A stretch of 32,064 bases of DNA, from NCBI GenBank assembly GCA_030826885.1, contig JAUUDF010000024.1, positions 1 to 32,064 on the forward strand, read 5' to 3'. The DNA comes from Sulfurovum sp. (GTDB lineage: Bacteria; Campylobacterota; Campylobacteria; Campylobacterales; Sulfurovaceae). Under the pieces are notes generated by a model. That model saw only the letters and a program-made list of their open reading frames with translations, did not search any database and was not told the origin of the DNA. The position numbers and the translations under genes are program-made. Shown here piece after piece: positions 1 to 10,566 of the stretch (position 1 is the first letter of the stretch; each line of letters starts with the position of its first letter).

Positions 1-189
1 AACAAAGAGGGGGTAGATGCACAGTTTGACCCACCACAGGAACAGCTTGCCTTTACACTTGGAGAGCATGAGTATGATGTGAATGGTATTTTTGCCAAAC
101 CGTTGGATGTCGTACTTGAAGCGCTTGAGAAAAACAGCTGTTATAGAGCAATGGTAGAGAATTTTCCAGATTTGAAAGAGGGTGTGTGA
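1..189 (+). CDS. C-terminal fragment of an unidentified protein
   Basis: An open frame runs from the window edge to a TGA at 187-189, giving the last 62 residues of a protein whose start lies outside. The fragment is soluble-looking and acidic, with no membrane segment. The stretch GIFAKPLDVVLEAL near its middle faintly recalls the Lys-Pro end of a response-regulator receiver domain, but this is too short to assign a family. It converges on the ABC-F gene, 35 bases away, with no obvious terminator between them. I do not recognise the product. Confidence 0.6.
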   Translation, partial: NKEGVDAQFDPPQEQLAFTLGEHEYDVNGIFAKPLDVVLEALEKNSCYRAMVENFPDLKEGV

Positions 190-224
190 CCCTCACGCTC
201 ATTTGACACGCTTAAATCTCTTGG

Positions 225-2060
225 TTATTCCAACTCCGCCAATCTCTCATCATATTTGTCATTGATCTCATCCAAAGCCTCGGTAGCTGTCTCCAACCTT
301 TCAAAGATCTCTTCTATCTCTGCCTGTGTCGCTGCAACAGCTTTGGCGTGTTCTATCATGCCAGCATTGTCTCCGCTATTTGAAGCATCTGTAAGTGCAT
401 CGTTCTGTTCGGCTTCAAGCTCTTCGAGTTCTTCGAGCCGCTTTTCGCAATACTTTATCTCATCTCTGTAAGGCTTTGCCTCTTTTGCCTTCTCTTCAAT
501 GATAGCGGTACGTCTTTTCTTGCGCTCTTTTTTGTCGAGTTTTGGTTTTGTCTTTTTGGGCTTGGCCGGGCCTTCTTCCTCTTCCCAGCCAATCTTTTGT
601 AAAAAGTCATCGTAGCTGCCGTCAAAATACTCCGCACCGCCTTTGTGGAAGATGATGAGCGTATCGGCCAGTTTTCGAAGCAGCATCTCCGAGTGGGTGA
701 CCATGATGGTCGAACCAGGGAAAGTCTCTATGGCATCACAAAGTGAATCGATGGACTGCATGTCCAGGTGGTTGGTAGGTTCATCCAGAAGCAGAAGGTT
801 AGCAGGGGTGGCGATGATCTTTCCGAGCATTACGCGGCTTCGTTCCCCTCCTGAGAGTACTTCTATCTTTTTGTCTGCCAGTTCACCCGAGAACATCATC
901 GTTCCGCAGATGGCACGTACTTCAGCAATGCCTGTTTTTTTGTCGACCGAGGCAATCTCGTCTATGATGGTGTTTTGGGTGTCGAGCCGTTCGATGTTGG
1001 TCTGACCGAAGTGTGCCATGGCAGTGGAAGGGTGGAAGGAGAGCGTTCCACGCTGCTGCGGCAGTTCCCCTGCAATATAGTTGAGCAGGGTGGATTTTCC
1101 TTTACCGTTCTTACCGATGATCGCAAGTGTTTTCCCGTTCTCAAGCGCAAAGGTCAGGTGCTTGAAAAGTGGCTGATCCTCTTGATATCCGAACCCGAGA
1201 TCTTCTGCTCGGAAAAGGACTTTTGCCGGGGTCTCTTTGTAGTTGAAGTGAAAAGAGAGGGAGTTTTCACTCTCAAGTTCATCCATCTCTTCCATCTTTT
1301 CGAGTATCTTGACCTTGGACTGTGCCAGGGCGGCGGTGGAGGCTCTGGCTTTGTTTCTGGCAATGAACTCTTCGAGCTCTTTGCGTTTCTTCTCCTGGTT
1401 GAGCCTTGTCTTCTCGTAGGTCTCATCCTGAAGCGCCAGTGTCTCATAGTACTTGTGGGTGTTACCCTGGACCATGAAAAGCCCTTTGCGCTGTATACCT
1501 ATGGTGTGGGTGGTCACGGCATCCATAAAGTCACGGTCGTGGGTAATGAGAATGACCTCTCCGTCAAAGTCACGAATGAACTGTTTGAGCCAGCGAAGAG
1601 AGAGCAGGTCGAGGTAGTTGGTAGGTTCATCGAGCAGCAGCATATTGGGTTCGGTTGCCAGCAGTTTTGCCAGATTGATGCGTATCTGGTAGCCTCCGGA
1701 AAAGCTCAAAGGGTCCTTTTTAAGATCTGCTGCGGTAAAACCCAGACCAAAAAGGATCTTCTCTATTTTGTAGAAGTTGTACTGCTCCTCTTCGGGAAGT
1801 ATCTGCGCACACTCCTCTTCCACGGTAGGTTTGGTAAATTCAAGATGCTGCCGAAGCGTACCGATACGGTAGTTTTTGGGGATGCTGATCTCCCCTTCAT
1901 CATAACTCTCCTCACCGAGAATGAGTTTGAAAAGGGTTGATTTCCCTGTACCGTTACGCCCTATAAGCCCTATCTTCTGATGGACTGTGACCTTGAGGTT
2001 GAGGTTTTTGAAAAGTGTCTGATCTCCAAAACTTTTGGAGAGGCTGGTGAGTTGTATCAT
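225..2060 (-). CDS. ABC-F family ATPase (duplicated ATP-binding domains, ribosome-associated type)
   Basis: This 611-residue protein has two ABC ATPase domains and no membrane segments, the hallmark of ABC-F proteins that act on the ribosome rather than in transport. The first domain has Walker A GRNGTGKST near residue 35, a signature LSFSGG and Walker B LLLDEPTNYLD. The second has GKNGKGKST, LSGGERSRVMLGK and LLLDEPTNHLD. A charged linker rich in Lys and Glu joins them, as in the P-site tRNA interaction motif of the family, and the last ~90 residues form an acidic and lysine-rich coiled coil like those of Uup/YdiF-type members. The length is normal for the family. It precedes trpB's 3' end on the same strand by about 137 bases, with a weak ribosome-binding site. 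Which ABC-F subfamily it belongs to, and whether it acts in translation rescue or antibiotic protection, cannot be decided from sequence alone. Confidence 0.93.
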   Translation of the reverse strand: MIQLTSLSKSFGDQTLFKNLNLKVTVHQKIGLIGRNGTGKSTLFKLILGEESYDEGEISIPKNYRIGTLRQHLEFTKPTVEEECAQILPEEEQYNFYKIEKILFGLGFTAADLKKDPLSFSGGYQIRINLAKLLATEPNMLLLDEPTNYLDLLSLRWLKQFIRDFDGEVILITHDRDFMDAVTTHTIGIQRKGLFMVQGNTHKYYETLALQDETYEKTRLNQEKKRKELEEFIARNKARASTAALAQSKVKILEKMEEMDELESENSLSFHFNYKETPAKVLFRAEDLGFGYQEDQPLFKHLTFALENGKTLAIIGKNGKGKSTLLNYIAGELPQQRGTLSFHPSTAMAHFGQTNIERLDTQNTIIDEIASVDKKTGIAEVRAICGTMMFSGELADKKIEVLSGGERSRVMLGKIIATPANLLLLDEPTNHLDMQSIDSLCDAIETFPGSTIMVTHSEMLLRKLADTLIIFHKGGAEYFDGSYDDFLQKIGWEEEEGPAKPKKTKPKLDKKERKKRRTAIIEEKAKEAKPYRDEIKYCEKRLEELEELEAEQNDALTDASNSGDNAGMIEHAKAVAATQAEIEEIFERLETATEALDEINDKYDERLAELE

Positions 2061-4526: not shown

Positions 4527-5798
4527 ATGTCAAAGATTATAGACTATTTTACACAAATTACCCAAATACCGCACTGCTCCAAAGAGGCGGACAGACTCAT
4601 GGAGTTTTTGGTCGGTTTCGCCAAAGAGAGAGGGTATGAGGTCGAAGTGGATGCGGCAAAGAATATCCATATTTTCAAAGGCAGGCCAAAGCTCTGTCTG
4701 CAGGCGCACTACGATATGGTCTGTATGGGCAAAGCGCCACAGATAGAAACGGTAGTCGAAGAGGGATGGATGAAAGCCAAAGGTTCATCACTGGGAGCGG
4801 ACAACGGTATGGCGATCGCGATGATGATGCAGCTTATGGATGAGGGCAGGGTGCTTGGATTTTTGCTCACTTCCGATGAGGAGATAGGACTGATCGGCGC
4901 AAATGCGCTGGCATTTGATCTGCCCTATGCCTATATGCTTAACCTCGACAGTGAAGATGAAGCGGAGGTCTACATCGGCTGTGCAGGCGGTGCGGACATT
5001 ACGGCCCATCGCAGTTTTGACCTGATAGAAGGTGATGGCGTATGCTATGAGATAGCGGTCAAGGGGCTTCCCGGGGGACATTCAGGTGTTGATATCGATA
5101 AAAATATCCCCAATGCCATTGCGCTGCTTGCAGAGTATCTCGATGCCAACGAGGTTGAGCAGGTCGCAGCGATCTATGCCGGAGAACGGCGTAATGCCAT
5201 CCCTGCCAATGCCGTGGCGGTAGTGCGTTCGGCAGAACCGCTTGAGAGTGACGGTGAGGTGACGGTACGGGTATTGAATGAATCGCCGCTGGTCTATGCC
5301 AAAAGTGCCCAGCTCATCGAGGCGTTGCATCGTTTCAAAACAGGTGTAAGGGAGTCTAATGAATCGCTTGGCATTCCGCATACGAGCATCAACCTTGCCA
5401 TTGTCACTGCCGATGAGAAAGGGGATGTTACCATTGAAACAAGTGCCAGAGCGATGGATATGGATGCACTTGAAGACCTGATTGCCGATACACTTAATTT
5501 CTTTGAGGATTATGGCTTTGAGTGTCATACCGAAGACAAGTACCCTGCATGGAAACCTGAGGTGACTGATTTTACCGAACTTGTCAACGAACAGATGCAA
5601 AAAGTCTTTGGACACAGTAAACTAATGGCGATCCATGCGGGACTGGAGTGCGGGGTTATCGCACAGAAGTATACGAAAATGAAATTCGCCTCCATCGGTC
5701 CGACGATACGTTATCCGCACTCGACACGCGAAATGGTCAACCTGGCATCAGTTGAGAAGACCTTTGAGGTGTTAAATAAAGTGATTCAATCAATTTGA
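4527..5798 (+). CDS. pepD: Cytosolic dipeptidase, M20 family, PepD-like (aminoacyl-histidine dipeptidase)
   Basis: This 423-residue enzyme is predicted to hydrolyse dipeptides with two metal ions in the cytosol. Metal and catalytic motifs of M20 peptidases appear in order: QAHYDMV (near residue 80), SLGADNGMA (near 90), the catalytic and metal glutamates in TSDEEIG, an aspartate in LNLDSEDE, and the C-terminal histidine in HAGLECG. GLPGGHSGVDI marks the lid domain joint. It is shorter than the ~485 residues of Escherichia coli PepD but matches the shorter forms of the family. A strong GGAGGG ribosome-binding site precedes the ATG. The gene has its own upstream region full of repeats. Confidence 0.9.
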   Translation: MSKIIDYFTQITQIPHCSKEADRLMEFLVGFAKERGYEVEVDAAKNIHIFKGRPKLCLQAHYDMVCMGKAPQIETVVEEGWMKAKGSSLGADNGMAIAMMMQLMDEGRVLGFLLTSDEEIGLIGANALAFDLPYAYMLNLDSEDEAEVYIGCAGGADITAHRSFDLIEGDGVCYEIAVKGLPGGHSGVDIDKNIPNAIALLAEYLDANEVEQVAAIYAGERRNAIPANAVAVVRSAEPLESDGEVTVRVLNESPLVYAKSAQLIEALHRFKTGVRESNESLGIPHTSINLAIVTADEKGDVTIETSARAMDMDALEDLIADTLNFFEDYGFECHTEDKYPAWKPEVTDFTELVNEQMQKVFGHSKLMAIHAGLECGVIAQKYTKMKFASIGPTIRYPHSTREMVNLASVEKTFEVLNKVIQSI

Positions 5799-5874: not shown

Positions 5875-6783
5875 ATGAAAACGATCTTTCAGGATTTGGA
5901 ATATTTAAAAAAGAGTGTCGAAGACAAAAAAGCACAAAAGGTACTCAAAGAGCTTGAGGAGAATATTCATCTTCTCAAAACCAAAAATGGGCTTACCCAG
6001 CTGATGAACAAGAAAAAACTCTCAAAGATTATCCGCAATGTGGAGTATGAGAACGAACTCAAAGAACTTCAGGTAGAACTCATCAAGCTGCAGAACTGGG
6101 TCTTTGAAAACAAAAAACGTGTCATGATCATTTTTGAAGGGCGTGATGCTGCCGGAAAGGGCGGTTCAATCAAACGTTTTACCCAATATCTCAACCCCAG
6201 AAAATTCAGAGTGGTCGCTTTGCAAAAACCTACAGAGGTAGAGACAGGCCAGTTCTATTTTCAGCGTTATTTCCAACATCTTCCTAACCCCGGAGAGATC
6301 ACCTTTTTTGACAGAAGCTGGTACAACCGTGCCATTGTCGAACCGGTCTTTGACTTTTGTACCCCTGAACAGTATGAGAAGTTCATGAAAGAGGTACCCG
6401 AGATTGAGCATGCCCTCATTGATGACGGGATCATTCTCATCAAGTTCTGGTTCTCCATTACCAAAGAAAACCAGCAGAAACGCTTTAAAGAGCGCATGAC
6501 CAATCCGCTTAAACACTGGAAACTCAGTCCGGTCGACCAAAAAGCCCAGGAGATGTGGGACAAGGTAACTTACTACAAAGAGGAGATGTTCTCCCGTACA
6601 CATACAGGGTTTGCACCGTGGATCATTGTCGACAGTAACGATAAAAAAAGAGCCAGACTCGAATCGATTCGTTATGTACTTTCACAGATCCCGTACGAAG
6701 GCAAAAAGGATGCGAAGATCAACCTGCACCATGACCCGGAAGTAGTGGAACGCTATCACAGACGTACACACAGTGAGAGTTAG
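5875..6783 (+). CDS. ppk2: Polyphosphate kinase 2
   Basis: PPK2 enzymes move phosphate between polyphosphate and nucleotides and mostly regenerate nucleoside di- or triphosphates from polyphosphate. The 302-residue protein has a Walker A motif, GRDAAGKGG (89-97), Walker B with the catalytic aspartate in FFDRSWYNR (Asp146), and a lid segment rich in Arg and Lys. The tail SPVDQKAQEMWDKVTYYKEEMF and GFAPWIIVDSNDK is typical of the single-domain class. The first 75 residues are helical and charged. AAGGAAA precedes the ATG. It converges with nth and overlaps it by four bases. Whether it prefers ADP, GDP or AMP is not clear from sequence. Confidence 0.95.
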   Translation: MKTIFQDLEYLKKSVEDKKAQKVLKELEENIHLLKTKNGLTQLMNKKKLSKIIRNVEYENELKELQVELIKLQNWVFENKKRVMIIFEGRDAAGKGGSIKRFTQYLNPRKFRVVALQKPTEVETGQFYFQRYFQHLPNPGEITFFDRSWYNRAIVEPVFDFCTPEQYEKFMKEVPEIEHALIDDGIILIKFWFSITKENQQKRFKERMTNPLKHWKLSPVDQKAQEMWDKVTYYKEEMFSRTHTGFAPWIIVDSNDKKRARLESIRYVLSQIPYEGKKDAKINLHHDPEVVERYHRRTHSES

Positions 6784-7433
6784 ACCTTGAAACTCTTTTT
6801 CGTCTTACAGTGTGCCGCCATGAAGCAGTCGTCACATTCGGGTTTGAGCGCTTTGCAGCGGTAGCGCCCGAAGAGTACCATGGCCTGATGCAGCCGGTGC
6901 AGGTCGGTTTTGAACTTTTTTGTCAGCTGCTCTTCACATTTGATGGCAGTGGGTGCATCACAAAGCCCCAGACGGTGTGCGACACGGTAGACATGGGTAT
7001 CGACTGCCATCAGGTTTGCACCGGTATACTCTATCATGACGACATTGGCGGTTTTCTGTCCGACACCTGCAAGTTTGACAAGCTCGTCACGCTCCAGGGG
7101 GATCTCTCCATTGTAATTCTCTACCACAGACTGTGCCATTTTTATGAGGTTTTTGGCTTTGTTGTTGAAAAAGGAACAGGTATTGATGAGGCTTTTGACC
7201 TCGTCCAGATCGGCACTGGCAAGGCTGACCGGGTTAGGGTAACGTTCAAAAAGCGCCGGGGTAATGAGGTTGACCCGTTTGTCGGTACACTGTGCCGAGA
7301 GCATGACGGCAACAAGCAGTTCATAAATGTTTTTATAGTGCAACTCCGTAACCGAATCGGGGTAGTGCTCGAGAAAGAGTGCCTTGATCTCTTCTATCTC
7401 TTTTTTGGTCGCTTTTTTTACTTTTTTAGCCAT
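6780..7433 (-). CDS. nth: Endonuclease III (DNA glycosylase/AP lyase)
   Basis: The 217-residue protein removes oxidised pyrimidines and cuts the abasic site in base excision repair. The helix-hairpin-helix LAGVGQKTANVV carries the catalytic lysine (Lys127), and VDTHVYRV carries the catalytic aspartate (Asp145). The C-terminal iron-sulfur motif has Cys193, Cys200, Cys203 and Cys209 in the C-x6-C-x2-C-x5-C pattern. All key residues are present and the length is normal. It overlaps ppk2 tail to tail and is divergent from peb4. The order nth-peb4 is also found, as I recall, in Campylobacter jejuni. Confidence 0.96.
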   Translation of the reverse strand: MAKKVKKATKKEIEEIKALFLEHYPDSVTELHYKNIYELLVAVMLSAQCTDKRVNLITPALFERYPNPVSLASADLDEVKSLINTCSFFNNKAKNLIKMAQSVVENYNGEIPLERDELVKLAGVGQKTANVVMIEYTGANLMAVDTHVYRVAHRLGLCDAPTAIKCEEQLTKKFKTDLHRLHQAMVLFGRYRCKALKPECDDCFMAAHCKTKKSFKV

Positions 7434-7550: not shown

Positions 7551-8399
7551 ATGTTGAAATTAGCAAAAACATCACTTCTGGCTGTAGCGGTCATGGCTAC
7601 CTCGGTTGTCGCATCAGACATTCTCGTTACTGTAAACGGTAAAAACATCACCAAGCAGGATGCCGAAGCATTTGTAAGTGCAACCGCTCCCAATGCCCAC
7701 TTTGAACAGCTTGCTCCGCAGCAGCAGGAGATGGTCAAAAGAACACTCGTAGAGAAGGTTCTCTTTGCTGATCTCGCAAAAAAAGAGGGTATTGAAAAGA
7801 CACCGGAATTCAAAAGGAACATGCAGAAGATCGCAGATGAGCTGGCGGTCAATATGTGGATGAAAAAGCAGATGGACAGCGCAGTCGTCAGTGACAGTGA
7901 AGCCAAAGCATTCTACGACAAGAACAAAGAGAAGTTCATGGTGCCTGAAACAGTACATGCAAGACACATTCTTGTAAAAACGGAAAAAGAGGCAAAAGAT
8001 ATCATCAATCAGCTCAAAGGGCTTAGCGGAGATAAACTCAAAGCGAAATTCATTGAGCTTGCCAAAGCCAAATCGACCGGTCCTTCAGGTCCGAAAGGTG
8101 GAGATCTCGGAAACTTCAGAAAAGGGCAGATGGTACCGGAGTTCTCCAAAGCGGTATGGTCACTGAAACCGGGCGAAATTACAACAAAGCCGGTTAAAAC
8201 GCAGTTTGGTTACCATGTGATCTATCTTGAAGAGAAAAATGCAGCGAAGCCTGTTGCGTATGAAACAGTCAAAGAGAAGATTATTGCGACACTCAAACAG
8301 CAGCAGTTTGCGAAAAAGATGTCTGAAATTGCCAAAGAACTCAGAAGCAAGGCAAAAATCGTCGACATGAGCAAAGCGGTAGAGAAAACAGCAAAATAG
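7551..8399 (+). CDS. peb4: Periplasmic peptidyl-prolyl isomerase/chaperone, Peb4 (SurA-like) family
   Basis: A 282-residue exported protein with a signal peptide (first ~21 residues, cleavage after VVAS or nearby). It has an N-terminal helical chaperone module starting at ILVTVNGKNITKQDA and including MWMKKQM (near residue 103). A parvulin isomerase domain follows at about 127-235, recognisable by VHARHILVK, GGDLGNF, MVPEFSKAVWSL and FGYHVIYLEEK. A C-terminal helix completes the chaperone core. In C. jejuni Peb4 helps outer-membrane proteins fold, and the same role is inferred here. A weakly sigma-70-like TATACT at 7504-7509 precedes it. The downstream gene repeats its helical module without the isomerase domain. 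Confidence 0.92.
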   Translation: MLKLAKTSLLAVAVMATSVVASDILVTVNGKNITKQDAEAFVSATAPNAHFEQLAPQQQEMVKRTLVEKVLFADLAKKEGIEKTPEFKRNMQKIADELAVNMWMKKQMDSAVVSDSEAKAFYDKNKEKFMVPETVHARHILVKTEKEAKDIINQLKGLSGDKLKAKFIELAKAKSTGPSGPKGGDLGNFRKGQMVPEFSKAVWSLKPGEITTKPVKTQFGYHVIYLEEKNAAKPVAYETVKEKIIATLKQQQFAKKMSEIAKELRSKAKIVDMSKAVEKTAK

Positions 8400-8427: not shown

Positions 8428-9471
8428 ATGAAACGAACGATCATCGCGATGTCAGTTGCATGTGGGCTTGCCTCAAGCCCGGTCATGGCAGACCATCTCA
8501 AAGAGAGTCTCAGCGGTATGCTGAAGAAAAAAGAAGAAACCCCATCCTTGGTAAACCTCAATGGTATCGATCTGGATGGAAAGGCAAAGCCGCTTAAACC
8601 CAAAAGCCGTTCCTCCAAAGCTGTGGTCGCGACGGTCAATGGAGAGAAAATACGCAAAAAAGAGGCAGATACCTATCTTTCGAAGCGTACGAATGGAAAG
8701 ATCAAAGACTTCGACCTGCTCCCCAAAAAACAGCGTTTGAGTCTGATTAAAGAACTTGCCCTGCCAAAAATCATTGCGAAAAAAGCCCAAAAAGCATTTT
8801 CCAGTGAAGAGAAAGATGCGCTGATAGCACGTGCATGGATGCAGAATGCCATGGCAAAAGCCAAAGTACCCGAAGCGCAGATCAAAGCTGCCTATGAACG
8901 TATCAAAGCACAGGCAAAGGCCAAAAGTGCACTCGCACAGCTTCCGCCTCTGGAAAAGATCAAAGAGCGTATTAAAATGCAAATAGCCGAACAGCAGCTC
9001 ATCGGACAACTAATGCGTGGTGTGGAGGTGAAAGTAGACAGTACGTCGAAGGACATAGCCGGATATGCAGGAATGATTCCCATTTATGTAGAAGATGTGA
9101 ACAAAGCCCTTGCACGTATGACAAAAGGCAAAATGACGTGGGCAACACTCTCTCCAAAAGACAGACTCGGAGTATTGAATATGATCGCACCAAGCAAGTT
9201 GATTACACTCAGTGCAAAGAATGCTTTGACCAAAGAACAAAAAGATGCGGTGCTGGCCAATGTATGGATGCAGAAAAAACTTTCTGAAATAGATGTATCC
9301 GAGAAAGAGCTAAAGGCACGTTATGCCAAACTTAAAACCATACTTAAAAAATCAAAAAGCAAAAAGAAACTTCCGGAGTTTTCCAAAATCGAACCCAGTC
9401 TAAAGATGGAAATTGCACGGGAAAAACTGGTGAAGTCTTTGACAAAAGATGCTAAAATAACGCTCAAGTAA
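8428..9471 (+). CDS. Exported protein with two tandem Peb4/SurA-like helical modules and no isomerase domain
   Basis: A 347-residue protein with a signal peptide (MKRTIIAMSVACGL, cleavage likely after PVMA, residue 21) and a Lys-rich linker to about residue 64. Two similar modules follow, about 66-203 and 216-346. They align through LLPKKQRLSLIKEL with LSPKDRLGVLNMI, and SSEEKDALIARAWMQ with TKEQKDAVLANVWMQ. Both end in long basic helices (KIKERIKMQIAEQQL and IEPSLKMEIAREKL). The first begins with VVATVNGEKIRKKEAD, as the Peb4 chaperone module does, and the WM..K pattern also occurs in the upstream Peb4. No parvulin domain is present. The protein is very Lys/Ala-rich and has no cysteine after the signal. 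The gene follows peb4 by 28 bases with its own AGGGAAGAG site and probably shares its transcript. A periplasmic holdase role is inferred, not shown. Confidence 0.85.
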   Translation: MKRTIIAMSVACGLASSPVMADHLKESLSGMLKKKEETPSLVNLNGIDLDGKAKPLKPKSRSSKAVVATVNGEKIRKKEADTYLSKRTNGKIKDFDLLPKKQRLSLIKELALPKIIAKKAQKAFSSEEKDALIARAWMQNAMAKAKVPEAQIKAAYERIKAQAKAKSALAQLPPLEKIKERIKMQIAEQQLIGQLMRGVEVKVDSTSKDIAGYAGMIPIYVEDVNKALARMTKGKMTWATLSPKDRLGVLNMIAPSKLITLSAKNALTKEQKDAVLANVWMQKKLSEIDVSEKELKARYAKLKTILKKSKSKKKLPEFSKIEPSLKMEIAREKLVKSLTKDAKITLK

Positions 9472-9492: not shown

Positions 9493-10566
9493 ATGTCTAC
9501 AAAAGTATTGGACTCTATCAATGCAGGTGTCGTGACAGGCGATGACCTGCAAACTCTTTTTTCCATAGCTAAAGCAAATGAATTTGCCATTCCGGCAGTG
9601 AATGTAGTAGGAACCTCTTCTCTCAATGCAGTTATGGAGGCAGCCAAAAAGGTCAATTCCCCTGTGATCGTTCAGTTTAGTAATGGCGGGGCTGCGTTTT
9701 ATGCGGGGAAAGGGCTTCCTTCGGATCAAGCGGCGGTGCTCGGTGCCATCAGTGGTGCGAAACATGTGCATACACTGGCTGAAGCCTACGGTATACCGGT
9801 CGTACTCCATACCGACCATGCTGCAAGAAAACTACTGCCGTGGATCGACGCACTGCTAGATGCTAGTGAAACACACTTCCAAACCTACGGCAAGCCGCTC
9901 TTCTCCTCCCACATGATCGATCTGAGTGAAGAGCCTCTCGAAGAGAATATCGCCACGTGTAAAGCCTACCTTGAACGTATGAGCAAAATGGGTATGACCC
10001 TTGAGATCGAACTGGGGATCACCGGCGGTGAAGAGGATGGAGTGGACAACACCGATGTGGACAACAGTCTGCTCTATACCCAGCCCGAAGAGGTGGCCTA
10101 TGCCTATGAAGAGCTTTCAAAAGTTTCTGACAGATTTACCATTGCAGCATCGTTTGGGAATGTGCATGGGGTCTATAAACCGGGTAATGTCGTGTTGCGT
10201 CCGGAGATCCTTGACAACTCGCAAAAGTATATCGAGCAAAAGTACAACACATCCGAAAAGCCGGTCAACTTCGTCTTCCATGGCGGTTCGGGCAGTGACC
10301 TCAAAGATATTCGTGATGCAATCAGCTACGGTGTGATCAAAATGAACATCGACACCGATACCCAGTGGGCTTTCTGGGATGGTGTACGCGGTTATGTAGC
10401 GAAGTTCCATGACTATCTACAGGGGCAGATCGGCAACCCTGAAGGTGAAGATAAACCAAACAAAAGCTACTATGATCCGCGTAAATGGCTACGAGCCGGT
10501 GAAGAGTCGATGGTCAAGCGTCTTGAGCGGGCATTTGATGATCTTAATTGTGTCGGACGTAATTAG
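9493..10566 (+). CDS. fba: Class II fructose-bisphosphate aldolase
   Basis: This zinc enzyme splits fructose 1,6-bisphosphate into dihydroxyacetone phosphate and glyceraldehyde 3-phosphate, and works in the reverse direction in gluconeogenesis. At 357 residues it is of the long, E. coli FbaA-like type. Visible motifs are FAIPAVNVVGTSSLNA, the catalytic and metal residues in VLHTDHAARK (Asp108, His109), GGEEDGVDN, the zinc histidine in GNVHGVYKPG, and FHGGSGS followed by NIDTDTQWAF, which binds the substrate phosphate. AAGGAAA precedes the ATG. It follows the duplicated chaperone gene by 21 bases. Many Campylobacterota lack a full glycolysis, so the gluconeogenic direction is likely. Confidence 0.97.
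   Translation: MSTKVLDSINAGVVTGDDLQTLFSIAKANEFAIPAVNVVGTSSLNAVMEAAKKVNSPVIVQFSNGGAAFYAGKGLPSDQAAVLGAISGAKHVHTLAEAYGIPVVLHTDHAARKLLPWIDALLDASETHFQTYGKPLFSSHMIDLSEEPLEENIATCKAYLERMSKMGMTLEIELGITGGEEDGVDNTDVDNSLLYTQPEEVAYAYEELSKVSDRFTIAASFGNVHGVYKPGNVVLRPEILDNSQKYIEQKYNTSEKPVNFVFHGGSGSDLKDIRDAISYGVIKMNIDTDTQWAFWDGVRGYVAKFHDYLQGQIGNPEGEDKPNKSYYDPRKWLRAGEESMVKRLERAFDDLNCVGRN

Follow-up and report, generated by a model that had tools for sequence, protein, structure and literature searches.

The window analysed here is a 32,064-nt stretch of Sulfurovum sp. (family Sulfurovaceae; contig JAUUDF010000024.1, forward strand), in which an open reading frame (ORF) of 347 amino acids, hereafter gene X (8428..9471, plus strand), lies between peb4 and fba. 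X encodes a relative of the chaperone Peb4, as an earlier note on this DNA had proposed; it has two modules, lacks the isomerase domain and is probably exported. The upstream gene, peb4 (7551..8399, plus strand; 282 amino acids), ends 28 bases before X and is intact with its parvulin domain (Pfam Rotamase, 2.9e-20; PDB entry 3rfw, E = 9.1e-52). The downstream gene, fba (9493..10566, plus strand; PF01116, 1e-87), encodes a class II fructose-bisphosphate aldolase and starts 21 bases after X. Endonuclease III is encoded by nth (6780..7433, minus strand; PF00730, 9.2e-27), which is upstream of peb4 and divergent from it.

X begins with a probable signal peptide (8428..8490, residues 1-21), judged by eye rather than by a predictor: the N-terminus is signal-like, the segment ends in ...PVMA-DHL with the cut after PVMA, and similar hydrophobic starts were found in relatives in which the gene is split. 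This agrees with the signal peptide given in the earlier note, and the product is probably exported to the periplasm. A low-confidence linker follows (8491..8610, residues 22-61), which has a counterpart in the module-1-type genes of relatives (L004, L005, and L006). The AlphaFold2 model of X (101 sequences) had a mean predicted local distance difference test score (pLDDT) of 82.2 and a predicted template modelling score of 0.71; pLDDT was below 50 for residues 1-48, and all ten-residue blocks from residue 61 onward were at 85-95, with both modules at about 90. Module 1 (8611..9048, residues 62-207) closes with a helix and a strand (8950..9036, residues 175-203; modelled helix 175-196, strand 201-203) that are the counterpart of the Peb4 C-terminal helix in the joint alignment described below. 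A short fusion junction (9037..9054, residues ~204-209) leads to module 2 (9049..9468, residues 208-347), which also closes with a helix and a strand (9379..9465, residues 318-346; modelled helix 318-341). All these features are on the plus strand.

The two modules were strongly similar to each other. Profiles of residues 62-207 and 208-347 were aligned by hhalign over 137 columns with a probability of 99.8 (E = 4.2e-29; reversed-profile control, 0.5), and the two sequences on their own gave a score of 190 (shuffled mean, 41.9), which was reached by none of 1000 shuffles; the internal repeat described in the earlier note was thus borne out. Each module was also aligned with a Peb4 profile that was made from the window Peb4 and 23 further Peb4 sequences encoded at fetched loci, after removal of the parvulin columns (the N+C profile). 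Module 1 matched it with a probability of 99.5 over 141 columns (reversed control, 0.3; 0/1000 shuffles), and module 2 with a probability of 97.9 over 135 columns (reversed control, 0.3; 1/1000 shuffles). Both alignments covered the N-terminal domain of Peb4 and continued through to its C-terminal helix; a module therefore corresponds to the chaperone domain minus the isomerase. The N-terminal domain alone gave 99.3 for module 1 and 98.0 for module 2; the C-segment alone gave a weak match for module 1 (probability 51) and none for module 2 (1.8), and the assignment of the C-terminal part therefore rests on the joint alignment together with the likeness between the modules. It had been suggested in the earlier note that X kept only the holdase part of Peb4. 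The absence of the isomerase stood, and the retained part can now be described more closely as the chaperone core, N-terminal part and C-terminal helix, rather than just its start.

The Peb4 parvulin profile was matched by neither half of X (hhalign probability 0.3 and 0.6), and the Pfam scan of X gave no rotamase domain, in agreement with what had been read from the sequence before. There was one soft spot: the score against the Peb4 parvulin sequence was reached by shuffles in 100 of 1000 trials with module 1 but in just 7 with module 2, which shows that composition can raise pairwise scores and that profiles are the stronger test. The same 7 of 1000 is what could be said for a reading in which the modules resemble each other only as lysine-rich helices, or in which X is unrelated to Peb4 and is a lipoprotein or resembles colicins. 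We regard this as hardly credible, because the profile scores collapsed on reversed controls, the modules share one clade (see below), and the Pfam scan gave no colicin or lipoprotein match for X. Thus, the halves were similar above background and the best matches were not to an unrelated lipoprotein or colicin family, the two points on which the earlier note had made its proposal depend.

When the X-family profile was compared with PDB sequences, 3rfw (Peb4) was the sole entry with E < 0.05 (3.1e-7, matching module 1 only), and the next matches were ribosomal proteins, from E = 0.09. The Pfam SurA_N models stayed below their cut-offs for X, OmpH (PF03938) was not among its Pfam matches at E up to 1, and NCBIfam gave only a chance-level match. 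X was also considered as a defence-system protein, and PADLOC gave no match. The protein search returned 184 relatives at E ≤ 0.01; the 120 matches listed were the window X and 119 others with 42-82% identity and lengths of 302-350 amino acids. X therefore has the N-terminal homology and the C-terminal helix by which the SurA/Peb4 chaperone-domain superfamily is recognized, and lacks the parvulin peptidyl-prolyl isomerase (PPIase) domain by which a Peb4 orthologue is recognized. On sequence evidence, X is a paralogue of Peb4, and the homology of both modules to the Peb4 core, like the history of the gene, is solid.

X was not a peculiarity of a single strain. We searched 175 genomes of the family and classified 150 by reading the DNA around fba or X (in the other 25, fba or X lay at the end of a contig, was not detected, or had not been fetched). 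The module profile, which also matches Peb4 itself, matched 168 of the 175. X was present in 124 of the 150 classified genomes and in nine of the family's eleven genera, and the description of X as lineage-specific in the earlier note is abandoned on this count. In 116 of the 124, peb4, X, and fba followed in order within one stretch; in the other eight, one neighbour was past the contig end or undetected. The order peb4-X(-X)-fba was found in all 108 genomes measured, with gaps of 100 bases or less between peb4 and X in 104/108, between X and X in 28/28, and between X and fba in 99/108. These short gaps make joint transcription likely. A promoter and terminator scan was at chance level (3 promoter-like signals vs. 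4.0 expected; 5 terminator-like signals, all on the minus strand, vs. 4.0 expected), and thus gives no support for a separate promoter or for a stop.

The 26 classified genomes without X belonged to two genera (25 to g75 and 1 to g74), with 14-37 bases between peb4 and fba. That X had been overlooked there was rejected: when 13 genomes of these two genera were searched again at E up to 0.01, the frames listed were of 271-298 or 484-497 amino acids, and none was of X length. X may never have been present in g74 and g75 or may have been lost from them; either may hold. In other families, seven loci with both genes (L019-L024 and L027) had no gene between peb4 and fba, and the gap was 10-13 bases in six of them.

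The form of X varied among the genera. In the window's genus (g1; 70 genomes classified), 28 genomes had a tandem pair of genes, 20 a fused gene, 13 a single gene, and 9 a longer X1 followed by X2. The tandem genes were of ~205 and ~160 amino acids, each with its own signal-like start. The longer X1 of the last group (as at L037, L093, L120, and L139) was of ~285-310 amino acids and carried an extra partial module, with a normal X2 after it. Genera g3, g4, g5, g6, g2, g71, and g73 had one single-module-type gene (with an extra insert in g2), and in g72 the gene was fused in G225 and a fragment in G226. The forms were labelled by script, which counted G226 as single although it is a 96-aa fragment beside fba, and G316 as split despite a broken second gene. 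A second gene broken into 108 and 67 amino acids was seen in the split pairs of L112 and L222, which may be one genome; a sequencing error is possible.

Genes in the fused state did not group as a single clade. A quick tree of Peb4 (143 rows) required four changes of the fused label, three of them forced by starred branches; this tree has long branches, leaves out loci without a full-length Peb4, and places the g74 row inside the outgroup. A second, careful tree, built from X1 and X2 joined end to end (49 rows, 22 fused and 27 split), also required four changes, two of them forced by starred branches, and three to four in the bootstraps; here one-module-type genomes, long-X1 genomes, and identical rows were omitted, and G225 is a long branch. 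Forcing the fused rows into one clade cost 65 log units (approximately unbiased [AU] test, p-AU = 0.00156; performed after the Peb4 tree was known), and a single origin of the fused form was rejected. The fused G315 was sister to the split G299 (support 100/99), and the junction sequences differed between fused groups. On a quick module tree, 74 X modules formed one clade vs. Peb4 (Shimodaira-Hasegawa-like approximate likelihood ratio test, 100), inside which X1 (98) and X2 (87) were separate; modules 1 and 2 of the window lie in the X1 and X2 clades, respectively, and the single genes of g4 grouped with X2.

The doubling had been placed inside one gene in the earlier note. This was rejected, because relatives in the same genus have the modules in two adjacent genes, each with a signal-like start, and fused genes are not one clade. 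Change counts on trees carry no direction, and fusion is favoured over splitting because the split second gene has its own signal-like start, which would be hard to regain. We infer that the doubling went via tandem genes, which then fused. Since the same two neighbours were fused repeatedly, the X1 and X2 products are predicted to act together.

X is under purifying selection. The ratio of nonsynonymous to synonymous substitution rates (dN/dS) of X was 0.00-0.22 in 18 gene pairs from 16 genome pairs (the pair L080/L087 has very few differences, and its values of 0 and 0.22 are rough), and that of peb4 was 0.01-0.19 in 13 of those genome pairs. The broken second gene of G316 is what might be expected if X were a functionless paralogue in decay. 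Against this stand the dN/dS values and the wide occurrence of X among the classified genomes, and we consider decay very improbable.

Two models were compared with known structures, that of X and that of a single-module relative; Foldseek gave no match at E ≤ 0.001. In alignments with SurA cores and with Cj1289, the X model was covered from residues 57-64 through residue 347, a range that spans both modules. The single-module model had no C-terminal strand, and its best alignment, end to end, was with the swapped chains of Peb4 (3rfw) and HP0175 (6bhf). According to the portion of PMC12428200 drawn on here, Peb4 and HP0175 are swapped dimers, whereas Cj1289 and SurA are not. The aligned ranges and secondary structure of the two single-chain models fit a swap of C-terminal helices between modules, and judging from these models the fused X probably mimics the domain-swapped Peb4 dimer in one chain.

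The swap could also take place with Peb4 itself. X would then act with Peb4 as a partner, or regulate it: the modules would exchange C-terminal helices with Peb4 subunits, and the resulting mixed dimers, which have at most one isomerase domain, would tune Peb4 rather than X holding clients by itself. The position of X directly after peb4 in every genome measured fits this idea, as does the single-module form, which would suit mixing and whose model best matches the swapping fold. Fusion, however, recurred between X1 and X2 and was never seen between X and peb4 (no peb4 or X ORF exceeded 348 amino acids in the fetched loci), and we judge a role as Peb4 partner improbable.

We instead favour, with fair confidence, a scenario in which X is a periplasmic ATP-independent holdase composed of two Peb4-type cores without isomerase, which arose by tandem duplication and fusion. 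The parvulin domain would have been lost from a peb4 copy adjoining peb4, leaving a single-module gene; this would have duplicated in tandem into X1 and X2, and the two would have fused in several lineages, including that of the window, with loss of the second signal peptide. Both cores would bind proteins that emerge unfolded from the Sec translocon, outer-membrane proteins most probably, and would keep them soluble until Peb4 or the assembly machinery takes over. Within the fused X, the modules would close on each other, the N-terminal part of module 1 with the C-terminal helix of module 2 and the reverse, and a single chain would thereby reproduce the domain-swapped Peb4 dimer. The mechanism is plausible; the holdase activity and the clients are those that X would have by analogy with its family. 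In the excerpts available of two SurA studies, the isolated core had chaperone activity and expanded OmpX (PMC11401910), and most of the in vivo activity resided in the core (PMC2556385). Two observations lowered our confidence in the scenario, namely whole-module matches to chains other than Peb4 and weak Rotamase_2 matches.

Some relatives are forms of the module with a C-terminal LysM domain. LysM (PF01476) was found by Pfam in all four single-module proteins tested from g2, g71, and g73 (E = 7.3e-17, 1e-17, 3.5e-16, and 1e-15), and labels assigned by word pattern gave 11 genomes with LysM (4/4 in g71, 3/4 in g73, and 4/11 in g2). LysM-bearing single-module genes are at L136:1888-2580, L158:1893-2585, L154:1879-2577, and L164:340-1110. 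The presence of LysM in relatives fits a periplasmic site at the peptidoglycan. In front of LysM there were partial Rotamase_2 matches below the cut-off of 27 bits (three at 25.7-26.4 bits and a fourth at 19.3), and the LysM forms may keep a trace of the isomerase-adjacent region.

The OmpH (Skp) cut-off was reached in none of 60 genomes searched (37 of g1 and 23 of other families; E. coli control positive), and three of the 60 had matches below it. According to the relevant passage of a review (PMC12428200), neither a Skp homologue nor an exclusively general-chaperone protein has been identified in C. jejuni and H. pylori. We tentatively propose, with less confidence than for the scenario above, that Sulfurovum-type bacteria repeatedly fused tandem isomerase-less genes of Peb4 type, turning a chaperone of two intertwined chains into a pseudo-dimer of one chain, that this would serve as a general holdase replacing Skp, and that sister genera would anchor the module to peptidoglycan via LysM. 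The X family is a candidate general chaperone factor outside the pathogens, and the natural series of none, single, tandem pair, fused pair, and LysM-tagged forms allows the contributions of the isomerase domain and of the swapped dimer to be asked about directly.

X resembles Peb4 (Cj0596) and HP0175 in the chaperone domain formed by the N-terminal part and the C-terminal helix, in the signal-like start, and in gene neighbourhood. It differs from both in having no parvulin domain and two modules per chain, and from Peb4 also in having approximately ten fewer residues in the middle of the N-terminal part (hhalign gaps) and in being more basic (median isoelectric point, 9.87 vs. 9.32; net charge per 100 residues, 9.3 vs. 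3.4). Cj1289 (SalC) has a SurA-type core, which the X model matches over 64..347, but is described in the text seen of PMC12428200 as a monomer with a parvulin domain and no swap. The E. coli SurA core construct without both parvulin domains is active on its own, as proposed for X (same excerpts, PMC11401910 and PMC2556385), but is engineered and has a single core per chain. Skp is an isomerase-free periplasmic holdase and is like X in the proposed role only, the OmpH match being absent. The MirC partner protein of a graspetide cluster, as far as the portion of PMC13097080 used here describes it, has a SurA-like chaperone fold without similarity to a PPIase domain; unlike X, it is from Micromonospora, is a biosynthetic partner, and has a different N-terminal domain.

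Loss of the isomerase in SurA-type chaperones is already known and is not new. Alphaproteobacteria have SurA proteins with a single isomerase domain or none, and the PPIase-less form, compared here by the description in part of PMC2635482, is like X in being a SurA-type chaperone whose isomerase was naturally lost. That case concerns SurA itself, whereas X is an extra paralogue beside an intact Peb4 and is doubled, fused, or LysM-bearing. Among the listed results of searches in the open-licence literature, nothing described a Peb4 relative with two fused cores, its repeated fusion, or a core that carries LysM.

Isomerase-less Peb4-like genes were also found outside the family, in genus g61 of family f16 (L183, L236, and L238), in G107 (L184), and in G179 (L181). 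On the quick module tree, which has long branches, none of them joined the X clade, and the gene of G179 grouped with the Peb4 of its own family (99). The isomerase was therefore probably lost more than once, as far as these sequences tell.

The surroundings of these genes bear on whether X is a general holdase for outer-membrane proteins or a chaperone for one non-barrel client, such as a periplasmic enzyme. At L184, the isomerase-less gene (4965-5474) follows two genes whose products have cytochrome D1 heme and cytochrome c domains; the product of the isomerase-less gene is possibly a client-specific chaperone, by analogy with this setting, which makes such recruitment conceivable for X. X itself, though, stays between peb4 and fba, neither of which is an obvious periplasmic client among the immediate neighbours surveyed, and the isomerase-less gene of L183 (5112-5717) is among outer-membrane protein genes, one like porin O/P and one for a beta-barrel of the outer membrane. 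We therefore think a single non-barrel client unlikely for X and retain the general holdase as the preferred reading. At the eighth other-family locus, L181, the isomerase-less gene (1154-1672) adjoins fba, the full peb4 of G179 is on another contig, and a Rotamase_2 match of 22.1 bits was found; G179 is possibly a parallel case of an isomerase-less gene at fba.
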